Shown here one piece after another: positions 20,489 through 36,844 of a DNA stretch of 64,000 nucleotides. Origin of the DNA: Candidatus Nitrosoglobus terrae (GTDB lineage: Bacteria > Pseudomonadota > Gammaproteobacteria > Nitrosococcales > Nitrosococcaceae); the NCBI RefSeq assembly GCF_002356115.1, contig NZ_AP014836.1, positions 434,001-498,000 of the forward strand, given 5' to 3'. The position numbers and the translations under genes are program-made. Within the stretch, counting starts at the first letter, position 1. The number at the start of each line of letters is the position of its first letter. The notes under the pieces were generated by a model that worked only from the letters and a program-made list of their open reading frames with translations, did not search any database and had not been told where the DNA came from.

Positions 20489-22039
20489 TTAACTCTGCTG
20501 TTCGATCTGCTGTTCGTATAACTCTACTTCTTCTCGTTGGATAATTGGTTTTGACTTACTAAGCTCATCTTTATCAATAATTTTGGGGGTATCATCCATG
20601 ATTTTTTTCAACTCATCATTTTGAATCCAGCAATCTTCCCATAAACTAGCGGGTTTCCCATCGACAATTTGACAGATAGGCTCATTACTTTCAAATTCAA
20701 GCTCATTTGGCTTTGCAATTCGTTGTAGCCAAATTTCCATATACCCATTATGGGGTATACGTTTAATTTTCTTTTGTATCTTTTCCCAAATGGGTTGTTT
20801 TTGATCATCGGGTACTAGAGGTAGCCACCGATTTAAGATTCGGGCAACCCTTGGAAAAGTACTCGGTGAGGTAAATGCTATATCGGTAGTGATTGCAATG
20901 AGCACTTCTACTGCTGGGCGGTGTAAATTTTCTGTGAATAGATTGTTTTGATCATTATCAAATTCACTATCAAACGCACTGACTAGGCGCTGTAATGCTC
21001 CGCTATTGGTAAACTGCTGCCCAAAGGCATGGATCTGTAATAACTGCATTTGAACATTAGCTGTTTTCTCTCTTTTTTCTCTGAAATATTGAGATGTAAT
21101 GGCAGCTAGTTTATCTGGTTTAATTGAACTTTCGACTATATTGCTAGAGGCTACTGTTTTTGCAGTATTAAGGGTCATGCCCACTTCTCGCAAGCAATCA
21201 CTAATCGTTTTGAGAATTTTCTCCGCCTGTCCACGGCTATTGGTAAAGATGCGATAATCATCTCTATATCGAAGTATTCGAGCATTCTCTTTTTCTTTTT
21301 CTTCTAATTTTTCATCGATTTTTTCATCCACATAGCCAAGCATCAGTTCCGCAATAAAATCCATTAATATTGAACCTTGGCTGATCCCGTTAGTTTGCCC
21401 ATAGCGGCCTGCTCGAATATGCTTATCAATTTTATTTCCAAGCAGATCATCATTCTTATTTTTAGGTTTTTTATGTTCTTTTGCTTCATCTCTACCATGA
21501 ATAGCCCAAGCAATGCTATGGGTATAAAGAGAGCCATAGCAATTTGCGACATCAGTATGCAATAAATAGCTAAATTCTAAGGAATAGATAAGGGATTGTT
21601 GCTCAATTTTTTCCCACCAATTTGTAATCAGCACTGCCCTACCAGTTTTGCGATCCGTAGAGATGACGGGCAGGCTATGGCATTCAATAAAGCTCTCTTT
21701 AAGTTTATTAAAACGTTTTTTTAAGCGATCCCAATTGTCTTTTGCACAAATAGTATTGACTAGAGAGACGTACAGTACCGGGTGAATCAGCTCAATGGGT
21801 CGCCAAGAAAGCCGCCCATATTTACTCATTAACAACGTATAATTTACGTTTGGAATAGAAGGTGCTGGTTTATCTTTGAATTGGAATTTACAGTAGTCCT
21901 GGCCGTTTAATATAGAATCAACCTCGTTCAAGATGGGTTCAAAGGTTAGATGAGGGGGTAAGTCGCAGGTGAGATAGCTAGTGTTCTTTAAAAAATGAGT
22001 TTTTGCTTCCTCATTTGACAGATCAAGTAATTGCTTCAT
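20489..22039 (-). CDS. reverse transcriptase of the Abi / unknown-group type, putative anti-phage
   Basis: A 516-residue RNA-directed DNA polymerase. Motif A is HTDVANCYGSLYTHSIAWAI (residues 161-180), with catalytic Asp163 and the YTHSI signature also seen in AbiK-type enzymes. Motif B is NGISQGSILMDFIAELML (about 217-234), and motif C is RYRDDYRIF with Asp260 and Asp261. After the palm, about 230 residues are helical (AVEVLIAITTDIAF, FPRVARILNRWL), resembling the alpha-repeat tail of Abi/UG reverse transcriptases. There is no group II intron maturase (X or HNH) domain, and I found no retron RNA nearby. From the family, abortive infection or another phage defence is likely. It lies 20 bases after the 3D-domain gene and next to a restriction-modification cluster. 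The exact subgroup is not fixed. Confidence 0.8.
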   Translation of the reverse strand: MKQLLDLSNEEAKTHFLKNTSYLTCDLPPHLTFEPILNEVDSILNGQDYCKFQFKDKPAPSIPNVNYTLLMSKYGRLSWRPIELIHPVLYVSLVNTICAKDNWDRLKKRFNKLKESFIECHSLPVISTDRKTGRAVLITNWWEKIEQQSLIYSLEFSYLLHTDVANCYGSLYTHSIAWAIHGRDEAKEHKKPKNKNDDLLGNKIDKHIRAGRYGQTNGISQGSILMDFIAELMLGYVDEKIDEKLEEKEKENARILRYRDDYRIFTNSRGQAEKILKTISDCLREVGMTLNTAKTVASSNIVESSIKPDKLAAITSQYFREKREKTANVQMQLLQIHAFGQQFTNSGALQRLVSAFDSEFDNDQNNLFTENLHRPAVEVLIAITTDIAFTSPSTFPRVARILNRWLPLVPDDQKQPIWEKIQKKIKRIPHNGYMEIWLQRIAKPNELEFESNEPICQIVDGKPASLWEDCWIQNDELKKIMDDTPKIIDKDELSKSKPIIQREEVELYEQQIEQQS

Positions 22040-22059
22040 TAGATAAAAAATAGATCGCC

Positions 22060-22524
22060 TTACTTTTTAAGCGGACTTTGCCAGTGAATCGTCACTTGGC
22101 GCTTACCCCATTTACGGGTAGCGGCCACATCATTACCCATAAAAATATCAATTTTTTTCTTCCAGCGTTTATTCATTTTATCCCGCACAATATAAACGCT
22201 GGGTAGCCCTTCAATCCTTACCTGAGTGCCGTGATCTAAGCCAAGGCGAATTAAATCCCGAGAGACGGAGAGGGATTTCATCCCAGGTTTGAGTTGATCT
22301 CCCCAAGCAGTAAGACCCACATGGCCTTTTTTTGTCTCTTCGACTCTCATGGTGTAAGCCGTTGAGGTCACTACCAAGGTGTGCTGTTTGTATTTACGTT
22401 TGTGCTTATGCTTGTTTTTTTGGCTTTGGCTTTGGCTTTGATTTGTAGCGGCTGAGCTATTATTAGCGACTAGTAAAACAGCCAGAAGTAAAATACCTAG
22501 AATAGCGCTATGTTTTTTTGTCAT
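22060..22524 (-). CDS. secreted 3D-domain protein (double-psi beta-barrel)
   Basis: A 154-residue exported protein. The signal peptide covers about residues 1-25 (ILGILLLAVLLVANNSSAA), followed by a basic Gln/Lys/His-rich linker. The 3D domain then follows: STAYTMRVEETKKGHVGLTAWG, SVSRDLIRLGLDHGTQVRIEG, and the three conserved aspartates in RDKMNKRWKKKIDIFMG. Family members act on peptidoglycan as lytic transglycosylase-like modules (MltA, Rpf/YabE), though many are uncharacterised. It lies between a methyltransferase gene (76-base gap) and the reverse transcriptase gene (20-base gap). Confidence 0.85.
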   Translation of the reverse strand: MTKKHSAILGILLLAVLLVANNSSAATNQSQSQSQKNKHKHKRKYKQHTLVVTSTAYTMRVEETKKGHVGLTAWGDQLKPGMKSLSVSRDLIRLGLDHGTQVRIEGLPSVYIVRDKMNKRWKKKIDIFMGNDVAATRKWGKRQVTIHWQSPLKK

Positions 22525-22600
22525 TATTAAAACGGTTTCCTTTTTGAATAGCCCCTACTGAGGCCAGCTCTAGCTATTGGGTATAGTCTGAAAGTTAGTC

Positions 22601-23710
22601 TTAATTGGGTTGCTCGTCATAGAGTCCATTTTCTATTCTGTATTTTTCTCGTAAATCACCAAGGCTGATTAAGTTATCATTTTTCTGCAAAAACCAATGT
22701 TCCCAGCCATTACAGGGGGCACCTTTCATATAGTGGCTTCCTGCCTGATGGATACTGCCTTCAAAACCATCTGCGGTTCGAAGTCTGGCATCAGGTTTGA
22801 TGGTGGCAGAACGAGACTGATCTTTTGAGAAAAATAAAGTTTGCCCAGCCTGTAATAATCCATTTTCAACTAGTGCCGAAAACGCTACTTTTGGCGCGGA
22901 TTTATTTTTGCTTTTTACGTTAAAGGTTTGGGAGTCAAACTTTTCTGGCTGAATTGCGTCTATTCGTGTTTGCGCTACTTTTATATATTTTTCTTCTCTT
23001 TCTAAGCCAATCCAATGCCTGTGAAGACGTTTTGCCACTGCGCCCGTGGTACCACTGCCAAAGAATGGATCAAGTACTACATCCCCGGGGTTGCTTGAGG
23101 CAAGAATAATACGATAAAGCAAAGATTCAGGCTTTTGTGTGGAATGGGCTTTATTGCCATCCTTATCTTTGATTCTCTCAGATCCAGTTGCCAACGATAA
23201 TAGCCACCAATCAGAGCGCATTTGTTTCTCTTCATTTAATCCTTTCATGGCTTGGTGATGAAACGTGTATTTTGCGCCTTGCCCGGTGCTTGCCCAAATG
23301 AGGGTCTCATGGGCATTGGTAAATCGAACCCCACGAAAATTAGGCATAGGATTGGTTTTGATCCAAATTACGTCATTTAATAACCAAAACCCTAAATTTT
23401 GCATGAGGGTGCCCACCCGAAAAATATTATGATAAGCGCCAATCACCCAAATTGATCCGGTTGGCTTTAGAACACGTTTGCAGGCAGTCAGCCATTTTTT
23501 AGTAAACTGGTCATAAGTTTGAAACGAATCGAATTTATCCCAATCATCATTAACAGCGTCGACCCTGCTCATATTAGGACGATGCAATTCATGCTGTAGC
23601 TGTAAATTGTACGGAGGATCGGCAAAAATCAAGTCAATGGATTGTTCAGGCAAAGCATTTAAGCTTTCAACACAATTACCGTGAAGGATTTGATTCAGGG
23701 GTAATTTCAT
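22601..23710 (-). CDS. DNA adenine methyltransferase of the HinfI/CcrM type
   Basis: A beta-class N6-adenine methyltransferase of about 369 residues from the ATG at 23710 (MKLPLNQILHGNC), a typical family start; an ATG at 23743 that overlaps the upstream gene is the alternative. The catalytic motif DLIFADPPYNLQL comes first and the SAM motif VVLDPFFGSGTTGAVAKRL later, the beta order. The segments NPMPNFRGVRFTNAHET and HSTQKPESLLYRII and a C-terminal extension (VENGLLQAGQTLF, SIHQAGS, CNGWEHWF) match M.HinfI and CcrM, whose target is GANTC. The target here is inferred. No HinfI-like endonuclease lies beside it, so it may be solitary. Confidence 0.9.
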   Translation of the reverse strand: MKLPLNQILHGNCVESLNALPEQSIDLIFADPPYNLQLQHELHRPNMSRVDAVNDDWDKFDSFQTYDQFTKKWLTACKRVLKPTGSIWVIGAYHNIFRVGTLMQNLGFWLLNDVIWIKTNPMPNFRGVRFTNAHETLIWASTGQGAKYTFHHQAMKGLNEEKQMRSDWWLLSLATGSERIKDKDGNKAHSTQKPESLLYRIILASSNPGDVVLDPFFGSGTTGAVAKRLHRHWIGLEREEKYIKVAQTRIDAIQPEKFDSQTFNVKSKNKSAPKVAFSALVENGLLQAGQTLFFSKDQSRSATIKPDARLRTADGFEGSIHQAGSHYMKGAPCNGWEHWFLQKNDNLISLGDLREKYRIENGLYDEQPN

Positions 23711-23732
23711 TTTTATATTTGCAGTTAAGGCG

Positions 23733-24119
23733 TTAACTTTCATCGTAGGGCAGATCTTTTGGGTTAACGCCAATGTAATCTGGATTGGGTAGCTTAGGCA
23801 GGCGGTAAGCCCATATCACGTTGTGCCCCTCCAAGAGCGCTTTCACCACTCGGTGCATGCCATCCATGATCCTGCCTTCTGGGTAGAGGATGATTGGATA
23901 AGCAAGATTTGACACTTGAACTAAGCGCATGTGATCTGCTATGGATCTACAAGTAGATATATCCCCCTCAGAATCGTACCAGTAGGGAGCATCAAGCTCA
24001 TGGATAGCACTGAGCTGGATTTCATCAGCTTGTAGATCTTTCGTAAGCTGGATAAGCTTATGAACATCCCAAGCTAGCAGGCCGTTACTGCTATTACGGA
24101 AATAGTATTGTTTTCTCAT
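23733..24119 (-). CDS. ParB/sulfiredoxin-fold protein in the modification cluster
   Basis: A protein of 128 residues from the ATG at 24119; a GTG at 24158 inside the end of the upstream methyltransferase gene would add 13 residues. The segment YPIILYPEGRIMDGMHRVVKALLEG (residues about 73-97) matches the ParB/Srx core, with the DGMHR motif in place of the usual GxxR nucleotide-binding box. Such stand-alone proteins occur in phages and beside DNA methyltransferases, and some ParB-fold proteins bind CTP or act as nucleases. Its job here is unknown. It sits between the EcoRV-type and HinfI-type methyltransferase genes, close to or overlapping both. Confidence 0.7.
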   Translation of the reverse strand: MRKQYYFRNSSNGLLAWDVHKLIQLTKDLQADEIQLSAIHELDAPYWYDSEGDISTCRSIADHMRLVQVSNLAYPIILYPEGRIMDGMHRVVKALLEGHNVIWAYRLPKLPNPDYIGVNPKDLPYDES

Positions 24120-24151
24120 GAGCGATATATATACCGTTTCATATATAGCAC

Positions 24152-25054
24152 TTAGCACGCCCCTGAAGACAGGGCAGAGAGCACTGAGCGGGTTACTTTT
24201 ATTTTCTGAGGGGATAGGGTGAAATTAGTGATGAGCGCTTCAATCATTGGGTTTCTGTTCTCTTCTTTTCCGCCAACATGATAAAAGTGCTCTTTAGTAA
24301 ATATGGAGAAATTTGCCCATAGGGATTTTATGTATTCATTTTCTCGATAGTCATTATGGTGCCAAGTGGATAAGATGAATTTGCCGTGAAAAGCGCTTAG
24401 GAATTTAAACAGGGAGTTTTCATGATCCCCATCCCAGCCGTTGTAGTAGTCAACATGTCTATCGATGTACGGAGGATCGCAGTAAATAATGTCGTCTTTG
24501 GTGGTTTGCGATATTGTTTCCTCAAAGCTCTGGCATTTAAACGAAAAATCCTTAGCTTTAATTATGTTTGTAACCCATGTAACTTGGTTGGTGATTTTTG
24601 TCACATAGGCCCGAGCAAACCGGTTAGGTTTTCTGCAAAAGGGGATATTAAACTCCCCTTTACGGTTAAAACGAATCATGCCATTAAAACCGGCTCGATT
24701 CACAAACAAAAAATCTAACGGAGAGTGATGAGCATTAAACCGGTCACGGATGAAATAATAGTGATCTTCCCCTTTCTCCAACAGGGTCGCGCCCTCCTTA
24801 GTAAGATAGGCGTTAATAATCTCCGGTGTAATCTCGCCCTTTGCAATTGCAGTGTAGAAATTTACTAGGTGTAGATTAGTGTCGCAAAGTACTGCGTGAT
24901 AGGGCGCAACGTTGAAAGCAACGGCACCTGTCCCCATGAATGGCTCAACCCAAGCGCCCTTGAAATCTGAGGGGATAAGGCTGTTTATCCAAGGGATGAG
25001 CTTGGTTTTTATCCCTTGGGATTTGATGGGAGGCACGCCGACTTTGAAACTCAT
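24152..25054 (-). CDS. EcoRV-type DNA adenine methyltransferase (Dam family)
   Basis: A 300-residue D12-class (alpha) N6-adenine methyltransferase. The start [18 protein letters not shown] matches M.EcoRV closely, as does the SAM motif [17 protein letters not shown]. The [18 protein letters not shown] segment, the catalytic [20 protein letters not shown], and the [11 protein letters not shown] segment also fit. M.EcoRV methylates the first A of GATATC; the same target is inferred here because the gene beside it encodes an EcoRV-like nuclease. Its ATG overlaps the nuclease stop (ATGA), so translation is coupled. It looks intact even though the nuclease frame is interrupted. Confidence 0.93.
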
Positions 25055-25890
25055 TCTTCACCGTTCCTTTTTTGGACGATGAGCGAACCATCTCCGTGCT
25101 TATATTCCACAAACTCCCGTAGCGTAGCAATTTTCTTCGTGCCTCCTTTCCCGTCTTGTACTATTATTTTTTTATAACTCATCCAATATTTGTCAAACCA
25201 ATCCTCGCCTAATTTGGAAAATATGCCTCGACCCGCCATAATATCGGCGATGTTGTTGATGCTACCAATGTTCGCGGTATTTCCACTACCGCTTTTATCG
25301 CTTGCGATCTTCCATTTTTCTGTAACAAAAAATTTTCAATTTTTTGCCACCGAGGCAATGGCTTGTAGCTCATCAATGCTGTGTGATTTTGTTTCGTCAA
25401 TAGTTGCACCATTGGCTCTGTCATAGATGATGCCAAGGCAAAAATGACCTAAGTATGAGCCATAAGGGAATTGAATATTTTTTGTGCTTGTTCTATTTTC
25501 GAAGTATTCGCCATGTGAACCCAGCGTGAAGCCATTGCATAAATGAGGTTTTTTGGGGTTACGATATGTTGTTTTGAAATCAATGGCAAAACGTACAGTC
25601 TCATCAATAGCTTTGACAAATGAAATATCAGGATAGTAATTTTGATGTTCTGCAAGCACGACTTTATAGCCATAGCCATTCTCTTGGGCAAACTTTAGGA
25701 TTTTTGGAAAGAGGTGTAGTTCAAGAATTTTTGACACAATTTTTGTATCTGAAGATAGCGTGTAGATATTTTTGAAGATATCAATGAAGCCCTTAACCGT
25801 CCATTGGCCGTCTTCCGTGCTGATGTGATCTTTAAGGATTTTAACAAAACTTTCTAATTTGGTAGCAAAAATGGTTTTTTCAGAGGTCAT
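25051..25890 (-). pseudogene. EcoRV-type restriction endonuclease interrupted by one in-frame TGA
   Basis: The frame from 25890 encodes an EcoRV relative. Visible are LSSDTKIVSKILELHLFPKI (Glu57 aligning with the EcoRV active-site helix), QNYYPDISF (Asp88), and FAIDFKTTY (Asp104, Lys106), which form the PD-D-x-K site. Next come FTLGSHGEYF and the KNIQFPYGSYLGHF-LGIIYDR block. Codon 185 (25336-25338) is TGA. Reading through in the same frame gives KFFVTEKWKIASDKSGSGNT, then ANIGSI and GRGIFSKLGEDWFDKYW, again clearly EcoRV-like, up to the stop at 25051. The lost part includes the SGSGNTANIGS block that corresponds to the EcoRV DNA-recognition loop, so the 184-residue product should not recognise DNA properly. 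No frameshift is present; a single base change explains it. Confidence 0.88.
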
Positions 25891-28693: not shown

Positions 28694-29866
28694 TTATTCT
28701 GAGACAACCATGTTTTGATCTACAATCTCCTTAGCGATAGCTTTTGCATCAGTGATTTCATTGGCGTAAACGTTCGTTGCATATTCATGGCTAGAATTAG
28801 TTACCAGTGAGCTGCTGACTGGATGCCCTGGGTTACCCACATTAATATGGGTGATAGTTGATAATCCTGGGCGTATAGGATGTTTTAAGAGCTCTTCTTT
28901 CGGTAAACCAATACGTACGGGTACACGTTGAACAATATGAATAAAGTTACCTACGGCGTTATCTGGGGGGAGCAGAGCAAATACACTTCCGGTCCCAGGC
29001 ACTATTCCTTCTACTGTTCCATGAAATGTGTAAGTATCCCCAAAGACATCGACATATACTAATGCGGGTTGGCCAGGCCGTACTTGGCGTAGTTCAGTTT
29101 CTCGTACATTCACTTCTACCCACAAGTGATCTAAGGGCACAATTGTCATGAGCAGATTACCCGGCATGACCCGATCCCCTACTTGCGCTTTGCGTTTAGC
29201 TACATAACCCGTGGCGGGTGATGGAATATTTTGCCGTACATATTCTATATAGGCACTAATAAGCTCGTTTGTAGCAGCTATAATAGCAGGGTGCTCTCGT
29301 ACAGTAGTTCCTCCTACCTGTGATTGGACGGCCTCGAGCGCCTGGTCGGTTTCTTGGACATCGGCCTCAAGTGAATTCATACGATCAATAGCATTCTGCA
29401 GGGTCTGTTTAGATACTGCACCGCTCGGTAGGGCTTTTTTGTAGCGAGCTACGTCATGGCGGACTACATCGAGTAAAGCTAAACGAGATTTAAGGGTTCG
29501 TTCTACCTGTCGTCTGTTAGCATATAGGGCACCGATTCTACGTACTTCTAACCCTAGCTGACCTTCAGTTCGGCCTAAATTAGCTTGTGCAACGTGGGCA
29601 TCAAGGCGAACTAGGATATCTCCTTTATTAACTTGCTGCGTTTCTTCAGCCAAAACATCAGTAATAATTCCTGTTGCCTGAGCTTCTAATGGAACAAGAT
29701 TGCCTGTTACAAAGGCATTGTCTGTCCATATCCAAAAACGAGCATTACTCCACCAATAGCTAGCATAAGCTAATGCGGCTATTACCAAAATTAGCGTAAA
29801 GAGCCAAAGGCGGCGATTGCGACGTGCGCGGATTGCTTTAGGGTGAATTTTAGTAGGTGTATTCAT
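28694..29866 (-). CDS. EmrA/HlyD-family efflux membrane-fusion protein
   Basis: A 390-residue periplasmic adaptor. It has a short cytoplasmic N-terminus, one membrane anchor (about residues 20-42, LWLFTLILVIAALAYASYWW), a biotinyl-lipoyl strand pair (VPLEAQATGIITDVLAEETQQVNKGDILVRLD), a coiled-coil hairpin (about 85-190), and a second lipoyl half (IPSPATGYVAKRKAQVGDRVMPG). It would join an MFS pump of the DHA2 type to the outer-membrane factor. It is the last gene of the minus-strand cluster MFS2, pseudo-OMF, MFS1, OMF2, OMF1, adaptor. Its first 36 coding bases are repeated at 31556-31591 as part of a segmental duplication. Confidence 0.88.
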   Translation of the reverse strand: MNTPTKIHPKAIRARRNRRLWLFTLILVIAALAYASYWWSNARFWIWTDNAFVTGNLVPLEAQATGIITDVLAEETQQVNKGDILVRLDAHVAQANLGRTEGQLGLEVRRIGALYANRRQVERTLKSRLALLDVVRHDVARYKKALPSGAVSKQTLQNAIDRMNSLEADVQETDQALEAVQSQVGGTTVREHPAIIAATNELISAYIEYVRQNIPSPATGYVAKRKAQVGDRVMPGNLLMTIVPLDHLWVEVNVRETELRQVRPGQPALVYVDVFGDTYTFHGTVEGIVPGTGSVFALLPPDNAVGNFIHIVQRVPVRIGLPKEELLKHPIRPGLSTITHINVGNPGHPVSSSLVTNSSHEYATNVYANEITDAKAIAKEIVDQNMVVSE

Positions 29867-31386
29867 GGTTTAAACTTTTAACCAGCTGCCTGTTGAGCGC
29901 GTTGATCTTCTTGTTGAGTATGTTGAGTGTCTTTGGTTTTTTCTTGAGTTTGTTGCTCTGTCGGGCTAGGGTTTGCCGCGGCCTCTATGGCTCCGCCCCC
30001 TAGCGCTTCAATTAACTCTATCATTGCTGCCAATTCATCTGCTTCAATAGCCCTTAATGCAAATTTTTGATCTAATACTGCAAACTGCCGTGTTAGCATC
30101 TCTCGACGATCATCTAACCCAGTTCGAACCCGTACTTTAGTCAGGCGCCACTCTCCTCTGGCTGAACCTAACAAACGATGATGGGCTTCAAGTATTTTTC
30201 GGGTTTGGTGCCAGGCACTTAGACTTTCTGCTACCTCTTTCATCGCCTCCAGCAAGGTCCCATTGTAGAGATTAACCGCATTATCATAAGCCGCCCGCTC
30301 TGCTTGCAGCTCACCCCGCAAACGACCCCCTTCAAAATAAGGCACACTAAAACTCGGCCCACCCCCATAAGCAAGGCTAGCGTGGGAGAAGAGCAAAGCC
30401 GGTAGGTTGATACTATCTCCTCTGAGGGTTAACGCATTAAAGCCGGCGAAGGCATTTAAATTGATAGTGGGATAAAATTGAGCTTTAGCCGCCTTAATCA
30501 GCTTAGCAGCTGCCTGAGCACGATACATCGCCGCCGTGAGATCAGGTCGATGAGCTAGAAGCCCAATAGGTAAATTCTCAGGTAATGGAATCCCCCGAGG
30601 GATAGTCACCGAGTCTTTAAATAACTCTTCTCCTACATCAGGCCCATGGCCGCTTAATCGAGCCAGCGTATATTGATAAAATTCCAATAGATCTTTAGTG
30701 CCAGCAATTCGCTTGTTAGTGGTCTCTAATGATTCGGTAGCCTCCATGACTCTTCTCGCATCATCTAGTCCAGATTGGACTCGAACCTGAGATAGGTTTA
30801 ATAGATCTTCACGAATGGCTAGCATTGTTTCTAGCAAACTAAGTTGCTGATAAGTGGCTAATCCGTGAAAATAAGATTTAGCAATACTGGTAGTCAGTTG
30901 CAGCCATACCTCAGCTCTTTCGGCTTTTTCAGCCATAGATCGGCCTAGGGCCGCTTCCATCAAGGAACGATTCCTTCCCCAGAAGTCTAAGTTGTAGCGA
31001 AAACTCAGGGGGTTGATTTGTGCAATACTAAGGTTTAATCCAGCTACCTGAGGGTTTAAGGCGGCAAATACACCATTTTCTGAAAGACGCTCTACGCTAA
31101 GCTCGCCTTCTGCCTCTAGGAAGGGAAGGAGTCCGGCACCTTGGATTTTGATGATAGAGTCTGCTTCTTTTAATCGGGCGCCGGCGGCTTTAAGGCCTGG
31201 ATTATCGGCAAGGGCTACCTCGATTAAATGGTTAAGTTCAGCGCTTTCGAACTGCTCCCACCAACGATCCTTGGGCCAGTCAGGGAGAGTGAATTCGTGC
31301 TCATGAGCTTCCCCAAGAGTGTGTTCCATTTCCATGGAGGCGGGGTCTAAGTACTCAGCCCGTTTTCCGCCATGAGGGAGCCAAGC
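29831..31386. repeat. segmental duplication, copy 1
   Basis: This segment and 31556-33174 are direct repeats. By eye they are essentially identical over all stretches I compared outside two divergent blocks. They run from inside the 5' end of the adaptor gene to inside the 5' end of the outer-membrane factor gene. The divergent blocks in this copy are near 30370-30443 and at 31018-31104. Confidence 0.9.
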
Positions 31387-31467
31387 GCATCCGCTAATAA
31401 AAAGAATACACCCTATAACGATGAACCTTAAACTATATTGGCTTCTTGAAGTAGATTGAACTGTCAT
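29878..31467 (-). CDS. NodT-type outer-membrane efflux lipoprotein, copy 1
   Basis: A 529-residue TolC-like outer-membrane factor. The lipoprotein signal ends at Cys27 (FISGCAW). The body shows two OEP repeats with long helices and the LDFWGRNRSLMEAALGRS segment after the first beta hairpin and VPYFEGGRLRGELQAERAAYDNAV after the second. It would form the outer-membrane channel for the adaptor and MFS pumps in this cluster. Copy 2 (31603-33252) is identical over long stretches. It differs at the signal peptide, around residues 122-151 (first beta-hairpin loop) and around the FAGFNALTLRGDSINLPALLFSH segment (second loop). A Gln/Thr-rich tail ends both. Confidence 0.9.
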   Translation of the reverse strand: MTVQSTSRSQYSLRFIVIGCILFISGCAWLPHGGKRAEYLDPASMEMEHTLGEAHEHEFTLPDWPKDRWWEQFESAELNHLIEVALADNPGLKAAGARLKEADSIIKIQGAGLLPFLEAEGELSVERLSENGVFAALNPQVAGLNLSIAQINPLSFRYNLDFWGRNRSLMEAALGRSMAEKAERAEVWLQLTTSIAKSYFHGLATYQQLSLLETMLAIREDLLNLSQVRVQSGLDDARRVMEATESLETTNKRIAGTKDLLEFYQYTLARLSGHGPDVGEELFKDSVTIPRGIPLPENLPIGLLAHRPDLTAAMYRAQAAAKLIKAAKAQFYPTINLNAFAGFNALTLRGDSINLPALLFSHASLAYGGGPSFSVPYFEGGRLRGELQAERAAYDNAVNLYNGTLLEAMKEVAESLSAWHQTRKILEAHHRLLGSARGEWRLTKVRVRTGLDDRREMLTRQFAVLDQKFALRAIEADELAAMIELIEALGGGAIEAAANPSPTEQQTQEKTKDTQHTQQEDQRAQQAAG

Positions 31468-31555
31468 GTTAATTACTCATGGGTATTTCTAGCCTATACT
31501 TCTCGTATTTTTTCTGTTTTTTAAAGAGAAGAACTGGTAAATTACAATGGGTGTA

Positions 31556-33174
31556 GATTGCTTTAGGGTGAATTTTAGTAGGTGTATTCATGGTTTAAAC
31601 TTTTAACCAGCTGCCTGTTGAGCGCGTTGATCTTCTTGTTGAGTATGTTGAGTGTCTTTGGTTTTTTCTTGAGTTTGTTGCTCTGTCGGGCTAGGGTTTG
31701 CCGCGGCCTCTATGGCTCCGCCCCCTAGCGCTTCAATTAACTCTATCATTGCTGCCAATTCATCTGCTTCAATAGCCCTTAATGCAAATTTTTGATCTAA
31801 TACTGCAAACTGCCGTGTTAGCATCTCTCGACGATCATCTAACCCAGTTCGAACCCGTACTTTAGTCAGGCGCCACTCTCCTCTGGCTGAACCTAACAAA
31901 CGATGATGGGCTTCAAGTATTTTTCGGGTTTGGTGCCAGGCACTTAGACTTTCTGCTACCTCTTTCATCGCCTCCAGCAAGGTCCCATTGTAGAGATTAA
32001 CCGCATTATCATAAGCCGCCCGCTCTGCTTGCAGCTCACCCCGCAAACGACCCCCTTCAAAATAAGGCACACTAAAACTCGGCCCACCCCCATAAGCAAC
32101 ACTACCATGAGAGAATAAAATATCAGAAAAAGCCCCAGCACTTAATATACTCATAGCATTAAAGCCGGCGAAGGCATTTAAATTGATAGTGGGATAAAAT
32201 TGAGCTTTAGCCGCCTTAATCAGCTTAGCAGCTGCCTGAGCACGATACATCGCCGCCGTGAGATCAGGTCGATGAGCTAGAAGCCCAATAGGTAAATTCT
32301 CAGGTAATGGAATCCCCCGAGGGATAGTCACCGAGTCTTTAAATAACTCTTCTCCTACATCAGGCCCATGGCCGCTTAATCGAGCCAGCGTATATTGATA
32401 AAATTCCAATAGATCTTTAGTGCCAGCAATTCGCTTGTTAGTGGTCTCTAATGATTCGGTAGCCTCCATGACTCTTCTCGCATCATCTAGTCCAGATTGG
32501 ACTCGAACCTGAGATAGGTTTAATAGATCTTCACGAATGGCTAGCATTGTTTCTAGCAAACTAAGTTGCTGATAAGTGGCTAATCCGTGAAAATAAGATT
32601 TAGCAATACTGGTAGTCAGTTGCAGCCATACCTCAGCTCTTTCGGCTTTTTCAGCCATAGATCGGCCTAGGGCCGCTTCCATCAAGGAACGATTCCTTCC
32701 CCAGAAGTCTAAGTTGTAGCGAAAACTCAGGGGGTTGATAATCCCTAGACTGATAGTTTTTCCAGATATTCCTAGACTAAAATCAGCTAGGCCATGCCCA
32801 GGTAGCCCTGCTCCAAGGTCAGGAAATGGGTTTTCCGCATCTATGCTTAGGGCACCTATTCCATGGGATGAAATACGTTCCGTACTAAAGCTGCCTTCTG
32901 CCTCTAGGAAGGGAAGGAGTCCGGCACCTTGGATTTTGATGATAGAGTCTGCTTCTTTTAATCGGGCGCCGGCGGCTTTAAGGCCTGGATTATCGGCAAG
33001 GGCTACCTCGATTAAATGGTTAAGTTCAGCGCTTTCGAACTGCTCCCACCAACGATCCTTGGGCCAGTCAGGGAGAGTGAATTCGTGCTCATGAGCTTCC
33101 CCAAGAGTGTGTTCCATTTCCATGGAGGCGGGGTCTAAGTACTCAGCCCGTTTTCCGCCATGAGGGAGCCAAGC
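31556..33174. repeat. segmental duplication, copy 2
   Basis: Second copy of the segment at 29831-31386, 63 bases longer because of the first divergent block (32740-32892 here against 31018-31104 there) with a small opposite difference in the second. It begins with a 36-base remnant of the adaptor gene's 5' end (ATG at 31591) that breaks off at 31556, showing that an outer-membrane-factor/adaptor unit was copied upstream. Confidence 0.9.
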
Positions 33175-33252
33175 ACATGCAGCAATAAGCGGCAGACACC
33201 CTACTACAAACCCTAAGCGATACTGATCCTTTAAAGTAAACTGAGCTATCAT
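31603..33252 (-). CDS. NodT-type outer-membrane efflux lipoprotein, copy 2
   Basis: A 549-residue paralogue of the 29878-31467 product. The lipobox Cys is at residue 26 (LIAACAW). The periplasmic helical parts are the same, residue for residue, as in copy 1. The first variable block is 22 residues longer here and Gly-rich (SIDAENPFPDLGAGLPGHGL), and the second is AMSILSAGAFSDILFSHGSVAYGG. Both lie where OEP proteins have the extracellular turns of their beta hairpins. The start is seven bases after the stop of MFS pump 1 (33260), so it belongs to that pump's operon. Confidence 0.9.
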   Translation of the reverse strand: MIAQFTLKDQYRLGFVVGCLPLIAACAWLPHGGKRAEYLDPASMEMEHTLGEAHEHEFTLPDWPKDRWWEQFESAELNHLIEVALADNPGLKAAGARLKEADSIIKIQGAGLLPFLEAEGSFSTERISSHGIGALSIDAENPFPDLGAGLPGHGLADFSLGISGKTISLGIINPLSFRYNLDFWGRNRSLMEAALGRSMAEKAERAEVWLQLTTSIAKSYFHGLATYQQLSLLETMLAIREDLLNLSQVRVQSGLDDARRVMEATESLETTNKRIAGTKDLLEFYQYTLARLSGHGPDVGEELFKDSVTIPRGIPLPENLPIGLLAHRPDLTAAMYRAQAAAKLIKAAKAQFYPTINLNAFAGFNAMSILSAGAFSDILFSHGSVAYGGGPSFSVPYFEGGRLRGELQAERAAYDNAVNLYNGTLLEAMKEVAESLSAWHQTRKILEAHHRLLGSARGEWRLTKVRVRTGLDDRREMLTRQFAVLDQKFALRAIEADELAAMIELIEALGGGAIEAAANPSPTEQQTQEKTKDTQHTQQEDQRAQQAAG

Positions 33253-33259
33253 GGTTAAT

Positions 33260-34855
33260 CTAGGGTGCTTTAACTTCCTTAGCTTCCCTTATTCCTAACT
33301 TTTTAGGGCTTGGGGGTATAGGTGAATGGGTTGGATAAGCAAACCAGACAAGTATGGCAAGCCCTAGAAATATACAAGCACCTAATATAAAAGCATCAGC
33401 CACAGCTAAAATATTGGAGGCTCGGTGAATAAGTCTTCCAAGATAAGCTTTTATCATGCCATCATTGTAACCAATACCCGTTAGCTTGGAGGAGAGTTGG
33501 CCAAGGGAATCAAAGGATGGGAAGAATCGGCCGCCAAAATAATTTGATAAATGAAGTTGATGGTAGGGGGCGCGTCGGTAGATGACGATATTTTGAAAGG
33601 AAATTCCAAGGCCACCTGCAGTCACCCGTAGCATATTGACTATTTCAGCCGCTCGTAATACTTGGGCACCTGATAATCCATGCAAGGTAACTGCGGTAAG
33701 TGGGGCAACAAATGATCCTAAGAAAAATCCTTCAAATAGTAGTGGCCAGCGAATCTGATCAAATGAAGCTGGATCGTCATATAATCCTATCCAGTAAGAA
33801 GCTGTAGCGAGTCCAAGCAGGCTGAGACAAGCAAGTAGGCGGGCATCCATACGCTTACTGAGTATATGCATGATGGCAACTGCGGGGGCGCTTAATAAAA
33901 GGATAGGTACAAATTCTAGACCTGCAAGGGTAGATGAATAGCCTAGTAGTACCTGAATTTGAACAGTAAGCAGTGAGATTAACCCTTGGAGTGAGAAAAA
34001 TCCGACAACTAGGCAAATTATACCAATAGCAAAATTACGGTGCGCAAACAGTTTCAAATCTACTAATGGCCGGCGTTTGTCTATTTCCCAAATAATAAAA
34101 CAAGGAAAAGCCACGAGCGTGAAGAGCAGCACTTTACGGAGAAAAGGTGAATTTAGCCAATCAAAATCATTGCCCATATTTAGAAGTGTCTGAATGCCGT
34201 ACATGGTACAAGCAAAGAGGAGAAAGCCAATAAAATCAAATTGGCGATATCGATATTTGAATCCACGAGCATATAGCAGCGATCCAACAATGCCGGCGAT
34301 AATCAAAGAAAGAATAATACTCAGGTAGAAAAAGTAGCGCCAATTAAGCTCATCAGCAAACCATCCGCCTATTGATCCAGCAAGCGTAAAGGGAGTAATA
34401 GTGAGTACCCCCCATATGGATACTCCTAATACCTTAAGACGTGCTGGGTACTCATTGAGTAGTATTTCTTGGCCTAGAAGGAGTGTAAGACCACCAGAGA
34501 AACCAAGTAGAATACGAGCCCATAAAAATCGTAGATAACTGTCGCTGATAGCACATAAGTATGAGGCGGCAGCAAATAGGATAAATGCGGTTACATATAC
34601 TCGATAATTACCATATCGCTCTGCTAGCGTACGACCAATAGGGAAACCTAGCGCCATCGCAAGCATGAGATTTGTCTGTGACCAGCCCATAAAACTGACA
34701 AAGGTTCCTTCTAGGTCTCCAGCAGCATGGGGCTCAAGGGCCAAATAACTTCCTCCATTGAACATGACTAGTATGTGTCCAAGGCCAAGGGTAATGTTAA
34801 GGAGACCGAAGTGCCATCCGCGTAGACGCTTGGAGAAAATAACTGGTTTTTTCAT
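33260..34855 (-). CDS. DHA2-family MFS efflux pump 1 (EmrB-like)
   Basis: A 531-residue inner-membrane transporter with about 14 predicted helices, as in the DHA2 drug:proton antiporter family that works with EmrA-type adaptors. The motif A region reads GFPIGRTLAERYGNYRVY and the motif C-like region is GFSGGLTLLLGQEILLNEYP. The N-terminus is basic (KRLRGWHFGLLNI). It is a clear paralogue of the 35252-36844 pump. Each pump gene has an outer-membrane factor gene, intact or broken, directly downstream. The drug or metabolite exported cannot be told. Confidence 0.87.
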   Translation of the reverse strand: MKKPVIFSKRLRGWHFGLLNITLGLGHILVMFNGGSYLALEPHAAGDLEGTFVSFMGWSQTNLMLAMALGFPIGRTLAERYGNYRVYVTAFILFAAASYLCAISDSYLRFLWARILLGFSGGLTLLLGQEILLNEYPARLKVLGVSIWGVLTITPFTLAGSIGGWFADELNWRYFFYLSIILSLIIAGIVGSLLYARGFKYRYRQFDFIGFLLFACTMYGIQTLLNMGNDFDWLNSPFLRKVLLFTLVAFPCFIIWEIDKRRPLVDLKLFAHRNFAIGIICLVVGFFSLQGLISLLTVQIQVLLGYSSTLAGLEFVPILLLSAPAVAIMHILSKRMDARLLACLSLLGLATASYWIGLYDDPASFDQIRWPLLFEGFFLGSFVAPLTAVTLHGLSGAQVLRAAEIVNMLRVTAGGLGISFQNIVIYRRAPYHQLHLSNYFGGRFFPSFDSLGQLSSKLTGIGYNDGMIKAYLGRLIHRASNILAVADAFILGACIFLGLAILVWFAYPTHSPIPPSPKKLGIREAKEVKAP

Positions 34856-34934
34856 TGCTATACTTTAAATAAATTGAATGTAGGTTTTTTTAAGGTAGAA
34901 AGATTTAACGATCTTCCTCTATATTCAATTGTCT

Positions 34935-35244
34935 TTAATGCTTTGGTAACTTTTACGACTCTTCTATCGTCATCTAACCTTGATTGGACTCGAGTCTCAA
35001 ATAAGTTTAATAAACTATTCATGAATAGCCAGCATTGCCTCTAGCAGACTAAGTTATTTTTAATCGAGCGCAAGTAGCTTTCCTTCTTAAGGCTTGGGTT
35101 ATCGACAAACGCTACTTCAATTAAATGGTTAAATTCAGCTTGGTTTCCACCGTGGGGGAGCCAAGCGCATGCAGCAATAAGCGATATACACTCTACAGCA
35201 AGTTCCAAACGACACAGATTTCTTAAAGTAACTTGGGTAATCAT
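34935..35244 (-). pseudogene. remnant of a third outer-membrane factor gene
   Basis: The first 30 codons from 35244 match the signal peptide of copy 2 (LIAACAWLPHGG) and then jump to AEFNHLIEVAFVDNPSLK, which in the intact copies lies about 50 residues later. Downstream, 34935-35050 still resembles the intact genes' stretch covering EATESLETT to LETMLAIRED at the DNA level, but with many changes and stops. Most of the gene is deleted. It sits seven bases after MFS pump 2 (35252), in the same place that copy 2 holds after pump 1, so it is the decayed partner of pump 2. Confidence 0.85.
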
Positions 35245-35251
35245 GATTAAT

Positions 35252-36844
35252 TTATGATACTTCTGCTTCTTCTATTTCTAGTTCTTTAGGGCTTGGAGGT
35301 ATAGGTAAATGGGTTGGATAAGCAAACCAGACAAGTATGGCAAGCCCTAGAAATGTGTAGGCACCCAATATAAAAGCATCATCCACCGCTAAAATACCTG
35401 AAAGTTGGCGAATGAGCCTTCCCCCTTGGCTTACTATCGCGTTAGCATTGAATTCAATACCCATTAGCTTAGAGGAAAATTGATCAAAGACATCAACGGA
35501 TGGAAAGAATCGGCCCCCAAAATAATCTGCTAAATGGAGTTGGTGGTAGGGAGCGCGTCGGTAGACGACGATGGTTTGGGAGGCGATGCCGAATCCACCG
35601 CCAGCAAAGCGTAGTACATTGATTATTTCTGCTGCACTTGCTACCCGAGTGGCTGCTAGCCCGTGAAGAGCAATTGCAGTGGGCGGAGCAAAAAATGCTC
35701 CAATGAAGATACCTTCAAATAATAGGGGCCAGCGAATCTGATCGAATGAGGCTGGATCGTCATAGAATCCTATCCAGTAAAAAGCTATGGCAAGCCCAAG
35801 AAAGCTGAAACAAGCGAGTATACGGGCATCCATGCGCTTAGTAAGTATATGCATTATCGCGATTGTTGGCGCGCTTAGTGTAAATAGGGTTGCGAGTTCT
35901 TGCGCTGCAAGAGTAGACGAGTAGTCTAGCAGTACCTGAAGCTGGACGGTGAGCAACGCGGCTAATCCTTGGATTGCAAAGAATCCAAGAAATAAACAGA
36001 GTACACCAATAGTAAAGTTACGGTGCATAAATAGCTTTAAATCTATTAATGGATGGCGTCTCTCTATTTCCCAAATGATAAAGCATACTAAGGATATAAA
36101 AGTGAGAATTACCACCTTACGAAGAAAAGGTGATTCAAGCCAATCAAAATCACTACCCAGCGTGAGGAGAATTGCGATACCTCCCATAAAGAGGGCATAG
36201 AGAATAAACCCGATGAAATCAAATCGACGATATTTATACTTAAATCCACGCTGGTATAGCAATGAGCCGACGGTACCGGCAACGATTAGGGAGACGACGG
36301 TATTTAGGTAAAATAAATAGCGCCAATTCATCTCATCAGCAAACCATCCCCCGATTGGGCCAGCGACTGAAAGAGGAGCAACCGTTAATATTCCCCATAT
36401 TGCTAGCCCTAATACTTTAAGACGGTTGGGATACTCGTTTATTAATAGTTCTTGACCCAGAAAAAACGCAAGGCCGCCAAAGAAGCCAAGCAAAAGACGC
36501 GCCCATAAAAATCGTATAAAGCTATCGCTGATAGCACAGAGACAAGAAGCAATGGCAAATAGGATAAACGCGGCTACATATACCCGATAGTTTCCGTATC
36601 GTTCTGCTAGGGTGCGACCGATGGGGAAGCTGAGTGCTAATGAGACTATAAAATCTGTCTGTGACCAAGTTGCAAAACTTACCAGTACCCCTTCCAGATC
36701 TCCAGCCACATGGGGCTGGATAGTGACATAACTGCCTATGCTAAACAGGATTGATATATTTCCAAGGCAAAGGGCAATATTGAGAAGAAAAAAACGCCAA
36801 CCCCGTAGACGCCTAGAGAAAATGACTGATGCTTTCTTTGCCAT
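35252..36844 (-). CDS. DHA2-family MFS efflux pump 2 (EmrB-like)
   Basis: A 530-residue transporter, paralogous to pump 1, with roughly 14 helices. Conserved shared blocks include SFPIGRTLAERYGNYRVYVAAFILFA, WGILTVAPLSVAGPIGGWFADEMNWRYLFYL and RRAPYHQLHLADYFGGRFFPS. The differences from pump 1 are spread over the protein, unlike the blockwise pattern of the outer-membrane factors, so the pump duplication is older. It is the first gene of the minus-strand cluster, with the promoter expected just above 36844. Whether it uses copy 1, copy 2 or another factor now that its own is broken is unknown. Confidence 0.87.
   Translation of the reverse strand: MAKKASVIFSRRLRGWRFFLLNIALCLGNISILFSIGSYVTIQPHVAGDLEGVLVSFATWSQTDFIVSLALSFPIGRTLAERYGNYRVYVAAFILFAIASCLCAISDSFIRFLWARLLLGFFGGLAFFLGQELLINEYPNRLKVLGLAIWGILTVAPLSVAGPIGGWFADEMNWRYLFYLNTVVSLIVAGTVGSLLYQRGFKYKYRRFDFIGFILYALFMGGIAILLTLGSDFDWLESPFLRKVVILTFISLVCFIIWEIERRHPLIDLKLFMHRNFTIGVLCLFLGFFAIQGLAALLTVQLQVLLDYSSTLAAQELATLFTLSAPTIAIMHILTKRMDARILACFSFLGLAIAFYWIGFYDDPASFDQIRWPLLFEGIFIGAFFAPPTAIALHGLAATRVASAAEIINVLRFAGGGFGIASQTIVVYRRAPYHQLHLADYFGGRFFPSVDVFDQFSSKLMGIEFNANAIVSQGGRLIRQLSGILAVDDAFILGAYTFLGLAILVWFAYPTHLPIPPSPKELEIEEAEVS

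Follow-up and report, generated by a model that had tools for sequence, protein, structure and literature searches.

Why should two adjacent genes for an outer-membrane efflux channel be identical over most of their length and yet differ sharply at three short places? The question is raised by a pair of tandem outer-membrane factor (OMF) genes, here called A and B, within a 64-kb stretch (the window) of a 2.0-Mb genome; judged by gene content, the host would be an acid-tolerant gammaproteobacterial ammonia oxidiser of the Nitrosococcaceae. We propose, with a probability of roughly three in four, that A and B, both VceC-like OMF genes, are tandem paralogs of long standing whose cores have been homogenised by gene conversion while the tips of their hairpins escaped.

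Results

Two Channels with One Core

The two genes are as follows:

29878-31467, minus strand: OMF A, NodT-family outer-membrane efflux lipoprotein, 529 aa, short hairpin 1 (TIGR01845, 304 bits, cut-off 210; PF02321; best solved relative VceC, 1yc9)
31603-33252, minus strand: OMF B, NodT-family outer-membrane efflux lipoprotein, 549 aa, long hairpin 1 (TIGR01845, 294 bits; 100% nucleotide identity to A apart from three blocks)

Both proteins exceed the curated TIGR01845 cut-off (210) and so belong to the NodT/OEP family, and their PF02321 scores are 126 bits (A) and 130 bits (B) against a cut-off of 22. Nucleotide alignment of A with B over their full length divides each gene into three core tracts and three divergent blocks, listed here from the start codon onwards:

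31387-31467, minus strand: divergent block of A, signal peptide to lipobox Cys, border immediately behind Cys27 (alignment)
31105-31386, minus strand: core tract 1 of A, 282 nt, matching B 32893-33174 (alignment; no silent difference at 62 sites)
31018-31104, minus strand: block 1 of A, hairpin 1, aa 122-150, loop plus outer halves of strands 116-127 and 145-160 (alignment; AlphaFold2/DSSP)
30434-31017, minus strand: core tract 2 of A (periplasmic helices), 584 nt, matching B 32156-32739 (alignment and models)
30375-30433, minus strand: block 2 of A, hairpin 2, aa 346-365 (alignment; strands 334-349 and 364-374)
29831-30374, minus strand: core tract 3 of A with 47 nt beyond the stop, 36 nt of them in the adaptor gene (alignment)
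33175-33252, minus strand: divergent block of B, signal peptide to lipobox Cys (alignment)
32893-33174, minus strand: core tract 1 of B (alignment)
32740-32892, minus strand: block 1 of B, hairpin 1, aa 121-171, long loop plus outer parts of strands 121-127 and 165-180 (alignment; AlphaFold2/DSSP)
32156-32739, minus strand: core tract 2 of B (alignment)
32100-32155, minus strand: block 2 of B, hairpin 2, aa 367-385 (alignment; strands 355-370 and 384-394)
31556-32099, minus strand: core tract 3 of B with a 47-nt overrun that holds a copy of the adaptor start (alignment)

Within the genes themselves, core tract 3 is 497 nt of identity up to the stop (A 29878-30374, B 31603-32099). A preliminary description of this DNA had called the two OMFs near-identical save for two blocks and the signal peptide, and the alignment bears this out almost to the base: block 1 lies exactly where it had been drawn (31018-31104 against 32740-32892), and block 2, placed near 30370-30443 against 32100-32158, is refined to 30375-30433 in A and 32100-32155 in B. 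The same description held that the blocks differ completely. Their divergence is indeed strong, but the difference is not complete: protein identity between A and B is 46% in the signal peptide, 41% in hairpin 1 and 33% in hairpin 2, and the blocks are, as aligned, homologous yet strongly diverged sequences rather than unrelated ones. In length they compare as 29 (A) to 51 (B) codons in hairpin 1 and 20 to 19 codons in hairpin 2. The predicted lipobox with its Cys reads FISGC followed by Ala in OMF A and LIAAC followed by Ala in OMF B. Because the first border falls directly behind this Cys, the mature lipoproteins would differ only in the two hairpin blocks.

AlphaFold2 models built on 19-sequence alignments (mean predicted local distance difference test score, pLDDT, 76 for A and 73 for B), with strands assigned by DSSP, show the usual OMF topology of long periplasmic helices and two beta-hairpins per protomer. 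In the model of A the strands span residues 116-127, 145-160, 334-349 and 364-374, and the blocks fall at residues 122-150 and 346-365; in the model of B the strands span residues 115-118 with 121-127, 165-180, 355-370 and 384-394, and the blocks fall at residues 121-171 and 367-385. As modelled, each block comprises a loop and the outer part of the hairpin that bears it; the strand segments further in belong to the identical core. The assignment of the two blocks to the two beta-hairpins, made earlier from sequence, thus agrees with the models, and a location within the periplasmic helices was rejected on the AlphaFold2/DSSP placement. The best fold match in Foldseek is VceC (1yc9; E 9.9e-24, TMt 0.83), to which sequence search leads as well; homology to VceC and OprM, like the models, would put both hairpin blocks at the extracellular end.

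Ages of the Cores and the Hairpins

When did the cores become identical, and when did the hairpins diverge? In cores 1, 2 and 3 the silent differences number 0/62, 1/141 and 0/92 sites (proportion of silent sites that differ, pS, 0, 0.01 and 0), and the sole change is in the codon at the border of block 2. In the blocks they number 10.5/17 for the signal peptide (0.61), 12/21 for block 1 (0.57) and 10.5/13 for block 2 (0.79), which is near saturation and comparable to the between-genus level: against the sister genus described below, silent divergence is 0.68-0.78 in the cores and 0.47-0.93 in the hairpins. This contrast indicates that the hairpins are about as diverged as genera and that the cores were made identical very recently. 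Since there is almost no silent change over some 295 synonymous sites adjoining near-saturated ones, chance or protein-level selection is ruled out as the cause of core identity. Far from being even along the genes, silent divergence runs from about 0 in the core to 0.57-0.79 in the blocks, the extreme unevenness that gene conversion of the core, as proposed in the preliminary description, predicts.

The same figures bear on two other histories. The first, in which one gene was duplicated recently and its loops then diverged under fast positive selection, would explain the identical cores, but near-saturated silent sites in the blocks beside almost unchanged cores are impossible by point mutation, and hairpin 1 of A resembles that of a sister-genus channel, OMF2; we regard this history as refuted, with next to no chance of being correct. 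The second, import of the loop segments by horizontal transfer from other species, fits the sharp borders, and the silent divergence of the blocks is compatible with a foreign origin. It is nonetheless improbable. Hairpin 1 of A is of a type seen in the sister genus and in Methylosinus; neither the class- and phylum-level genome samples nor the plasmid collection yielded a closer foreign source; and import would have to occur independently at both hairpins, with a separate cause for the signal peptide. The earlier suggestion of selection for, or import of, different loops is not supported in the form in which it was made: the hairpins are old, their silent sites being near saturation; no excess of amino-acid over silent change was seen in them, the proportion of amino-acid-changing differences (pN) being lower than pS in both; and the genome holds no silent loop cassettes beyond A, B and an OMF remnant upstream of them. 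Recent diversification or loop shuffling is not supported by the data.

Shared Sequence beyond the Stop Codons

Which gene was copied into which? Two further features are needed here:

28694-29866, minus strand: single periplasmic adaptor, an EmrA/HlyD-like membrane fusion protein (MFP) (PRK15136 EmrA, 283 bits, and TIGR00998, 275 bits, both below cut-off; HlyD Pfam domains)
31469-31591, minus strand: mini open reading frame of 40 codons in which the copied adaptor start (MNTPTKIHPKAI) is fused to spacer; its stop ends 1 nt ahead of the A start codon

The regions downstream of the two stop codons have 47 nt in common, including the first 36 nt of the adaptor gene. This gene is intact only behind A, and the corresponding OMF1-OMF2 gap in the sister-genus genome (G001) is 5 nt; the copy of the adaptor start behind B is therefore extra. 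On the simplest reading, A was the donor and the tract overran past the stop. The mini open reading frame left there might couple translation of A to that of B.

The Counterpart Operon in a Sister Genus

Among the six genomes sampled from the family (G000 to G005, one of them from this genus), a close counterpart of the OMF occurs in one other genus only, represented by G001 (1.8 Mb). The OMF of this operon is found in the two small-genome genera, and the four larger family genomes are without a close counterpart. The G001 locus (L044) has the same flanking genes, one adaptor and the order MFS-MFS-OMF1-OMF2-MFP, MFS being a major facilitator superfamily transporter. Its OMF1 (O1) and OMF2 (O2) have cores about 69% identical, without identical tracts. 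OMF2, which like A adjoins the adaptor gene, carries a hairpin 1 that is short and closely similar to that of A (ERLSEHGVFAALNPGVAG against ERLSENGVFAALNPQVAG; 16/29 residues, Z 12.8); in OMF1, which like B adjoins an MFS gene, hairpin 1 is long and glycine-rich, again as in B. Length and tip motif of hairpin 1 thus follow gene position across the two genera; since a long and a short hairpin are paired in each genome, such positional agreement would arise by chance half the time. The closest relative outside the family is a single-copy MFS-OMF-HlyD set with a short hairpin on a Methylosinus plasmid. This set adjoins a MarR regulator and an NnrS gene. The operon may be tied to acid or nitrite stress. 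Further members in the class, phylum and plasmid samples reach at most about 42% identity and include no tandem pair, and a search of genome contigs for closer relatives found only proteins of 22-33% identity.

A tree of the cores groups by genome, A+B against O1+O2 (support 100/98), and the MFS tree also joins the two G001 copies. Either one duplication preceded the split and homogenisation followed in both genera, or each genus underwent a separate duplication near the split; shared ancestry is slightly ahead. Quartet likelihoods of the hairpins (20-30 codons) do not separate the topologies, and hairpin 2 leans, if anywhere, opposite to the positional pattern of hairpin 1, with (A,O2)(B,O1) disfavoured (approximately unbiased test, p 0.03). 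Pair scores of hairpin 2 hint that the two genera have exchanged it (A pairing with O1, B with O2); we do not claim such an exchange, since (A,B)(O1,O2) fits equally well.

Why the Tips Differ

What spared the blocks? All tract borders lie in or beside stretches conserved across A, B and both sister-genus channels (LLPFLEAE, INP, NA and YGGG), and the blocks are the lowest-identity segments and the sole length differences between the two paralogs. Both observations favour a purely mechanical cause, in which heterology or a difference in length halts conversion; on this view the hairpins and the signal peptide are too different to copy, and the difference has no function. So does the escape of the signal peptide: because it too is exempt from conversion, escape of the tips could stem from heterology alone. 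However, heterologous stretches of 60-150 nt between long identical arms are usually co-converted readily, and with arms of 282-584 nt the survival of the blocks is not obviously to be expected unless there is selection or the event is very recent. A purely mechanical cause comes close to even odds, in our judgment, without reaching them.

The long identical arms around each short block should make its loss by conversion easy, and this argues for surface variation under selection, in which phages, bacteriocins or other ligands that bind the tips favour two tips and conversions that erase one are purged. Further support comes from the mature proteins, which differ at the tips alone; from the phage-defence genes a few kb away; from the faster protein change of the hairpins, whose pN is 0.43-0.45 where cores of similar silent divergence, compared between genera, have 0.18-0.31; and from TolC, whose loops are phage receptors and in which resistance mutations that retain tetracycline resistance map in or near the loops (PMC7260982). 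On the other hand, positive selection leaves no detectable sign, as both hairpins have near-saturated silent sites and a pN lower than their pS; the signal peptide, a segment that is cleaved and never surface-exposed, escaped conversion too; loop variability is ordinary in this family without special selection; and no phage of these bacteria has been linked to the channel. Selection on the tips is a possibility that we hold tentatively, with the odds against it, and the phage escape put forward in the preliminary description, although a possible story for the two tips, is not borne out by any sign of positive selection. A stronger version strikes us as unlikely: the cell would deliberately keep two tip versions on a shared adaptor and in mixed trimers, as two pump faces against a tip-binding phage or bacteriocin (escape or dilution), with conversion keeping them interchangeable since the genera split. 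Our own proposal overlaps with both the selective and the mechanical alternatives, which lie within the conversion scenario and differ only in why the tips differ.

The Surrounding Operon

Upstream of B the operon continues with three features:

33260-34855, minus strand: MFS transporter, EmrB/DHA2-like, immediately upstream of B (TIGR00711, 230.1 bits against a cut-off of 230.2; PF07690)
34856-35251, minus strand: remnant of a third OMF with a B-like signal peptide, hairpin 1 deleted, and frameshifts (75-85% nucleotide identity to pieces of B and A)
35252-36844, minus strand: second MFS transporter, EmrB/DHA2-like, 68% identical to the first (TIGR00711, 235.4 bits; tree)

The minus-strand order is MFS (36844-35252), OMF remnant (35251-34856), MFS (34855-33260), OMF B (33252-31603), OMF A (31467-29878) and adaptor MFP (29866-28694), which, from its genes, would be an MFS efflux operon of the EmrAB/VceCAB type with one adaptor gene only. 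One MFS transporter is just above the EmrB-type TIGR00711 cut-off of 230.2 and the other just below. The adaptor falls short of the EmrA cut-offs (275 against 390.8 for TIGR00998, 283 against 563 for PRK15136); for this reason we name it EmrA-like rather than EmrA, as a related adaptor of the HlyD type. The tandem MFS paralogs, 68% identical, are without identical tracts, unlike the OMFs, and recent conversion seems to be confined to the OMF genes. In the OMF remnant (34856-35251, minus strand) the B-like signal peptide (SLIAACAWLPHGG) is followed by pieces 77-85% identical to the A/B core. The remnant suggests duplication of an MFS-OMF unit and subsequent loss of one OMF.

No inverted repeats or invertible segments were found around the OMF genes. 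A search for a promoter private to A gave one weak consensus match only (31599-31572, coding strand of the A-B spacer), and the region is no richer in promoter-like sites than shuffled sequence. About 3-8 kb past the 3' end of the operon, a defence cluster (20489-25890, minus strand) encodes an AbiP2-type reverse transcriptase (PADLOC DRT, 611 bits) and two DNA methyltransferases, together with an EcoRV-family restriction enzyme that is perhaps truncated (184 aa against a 244-position model). As to the gene content by which we judged the host, ammonia monooxygenase is present in all six family genomes, and the window also encodes a seven-haem cytochrome family protein (hydroxylamine-oxidoreductase type) and cytochrome P460.

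Discussion

We propose that ectopic gene conversion recently copied the core of A into B, in a tract that would have run from just past the lipobox to 47 nt beyond the stop, broken at both hairpins. Both ducts would dock to one adaptor, and homogenised cores would accordingly be tolerated or favoured; an identical periplasmic barrel would keep A and B interchangeable, and they may form mixed trimers. The hairpin tips would face lipopolysaccharide (LPS), phages and bacteriocins, not the adaptor. Their persistent difference may be due to a block on conversion by heterology and unequal length, to selection that maintains two types of tip, or to the two together. The outcome would be one efflux duct with two surface versions. 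The assembled three-part export complex is itself a prediction from the genes.

Several points weigh against this proposal. It is drawn from one genome of this genus, and conversion in progress has been seen in no second strain. Collapse of the repeat or polishing during assembly could exaggerate the identity of the tracts; such homogenisation would touch that identity, not the existence or location of the divergent blocks. The 47-nt overrun could be the relic of a duplication junction. The grouping by genome in the trees of OMF cores and MFS transporters fits independent duplications in each genus too, and likelihood does not single out a paralog-specific ancestry of the hairpins across genera. 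Finally, the tip of hairpin 1 in B is modelled at low confidence (loop 130-164, pLDDT below 50).

A and B are a clean natural experiment, two ducts that after processing differ in their extracellular tips only. Cells with only A or only B would isolate the roles of OMF tips in phage or bacteriocin reception, LPS contact and outer gating, a question not closed by simulations of TolC and OprM (PMC8277102). In OprM the simulations revealed no outer gate; the loops are reported to contact LPS, and their functions are debated (PMC8277102). TolC, of the same superfamily, is the receptor of phages TLS and U136B through its surface loops, and resistance mutations in or near these loops can leave tetracycline efflux intact (PMC7260982); unlike TolC, the A/B channel has no known phage or bacteriocin.

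How does the locus compare with other efflux operons? Its closest match in sequence and fold is VceC (PDB 1yc9) of the VceCAB system, which likewise joins an MFS transporter and an adaptor to a dedicated OMF. VceCAB has one dedicated OMF, whereas here there are two MFS transporters, two OMFs and one adaptor, and B has a long hairpin 1. The G001 operon is closer still, sharing the gene order (apart from the OMF remnant), the flanking genes and one short and one long hairpin 1 in equal positions; it differs in its OMF cores, which at about 69% identity have undergone no recent conversion.

For the pattern itself, the nearest parallels are homA/homB and babA/babB of Helicobacter pylori, in which one segment is under concerted evolution by gene conversion and groups by strain, and another is divergent and groups by gene; the variable segment is thought to be involved in antigenic diversity (PMC2795765, PMC3960876). 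Like these genes, A and B are outer-membrane paralogs within one genome that combine a homogenised with a divergent segment. Unlike them, A and B form a tandem efflux duct with two variable hairpins in place of one middle region, known from one genome and with no evidence of switching; the H. pylori genes are of the adhesin type and vary at strain level across many isolates. A limited literature search found no report of segmental concerted evolution in efflux ducts. The phenomenon is thus already known in outer-membrane paralogs and the efflux duct is its new setting: here it would act on a pump of free-living ammonia oxidisers rather than on pathogen adhesins, and the core may plausibly be homogenised because both ducts share one adaptor.

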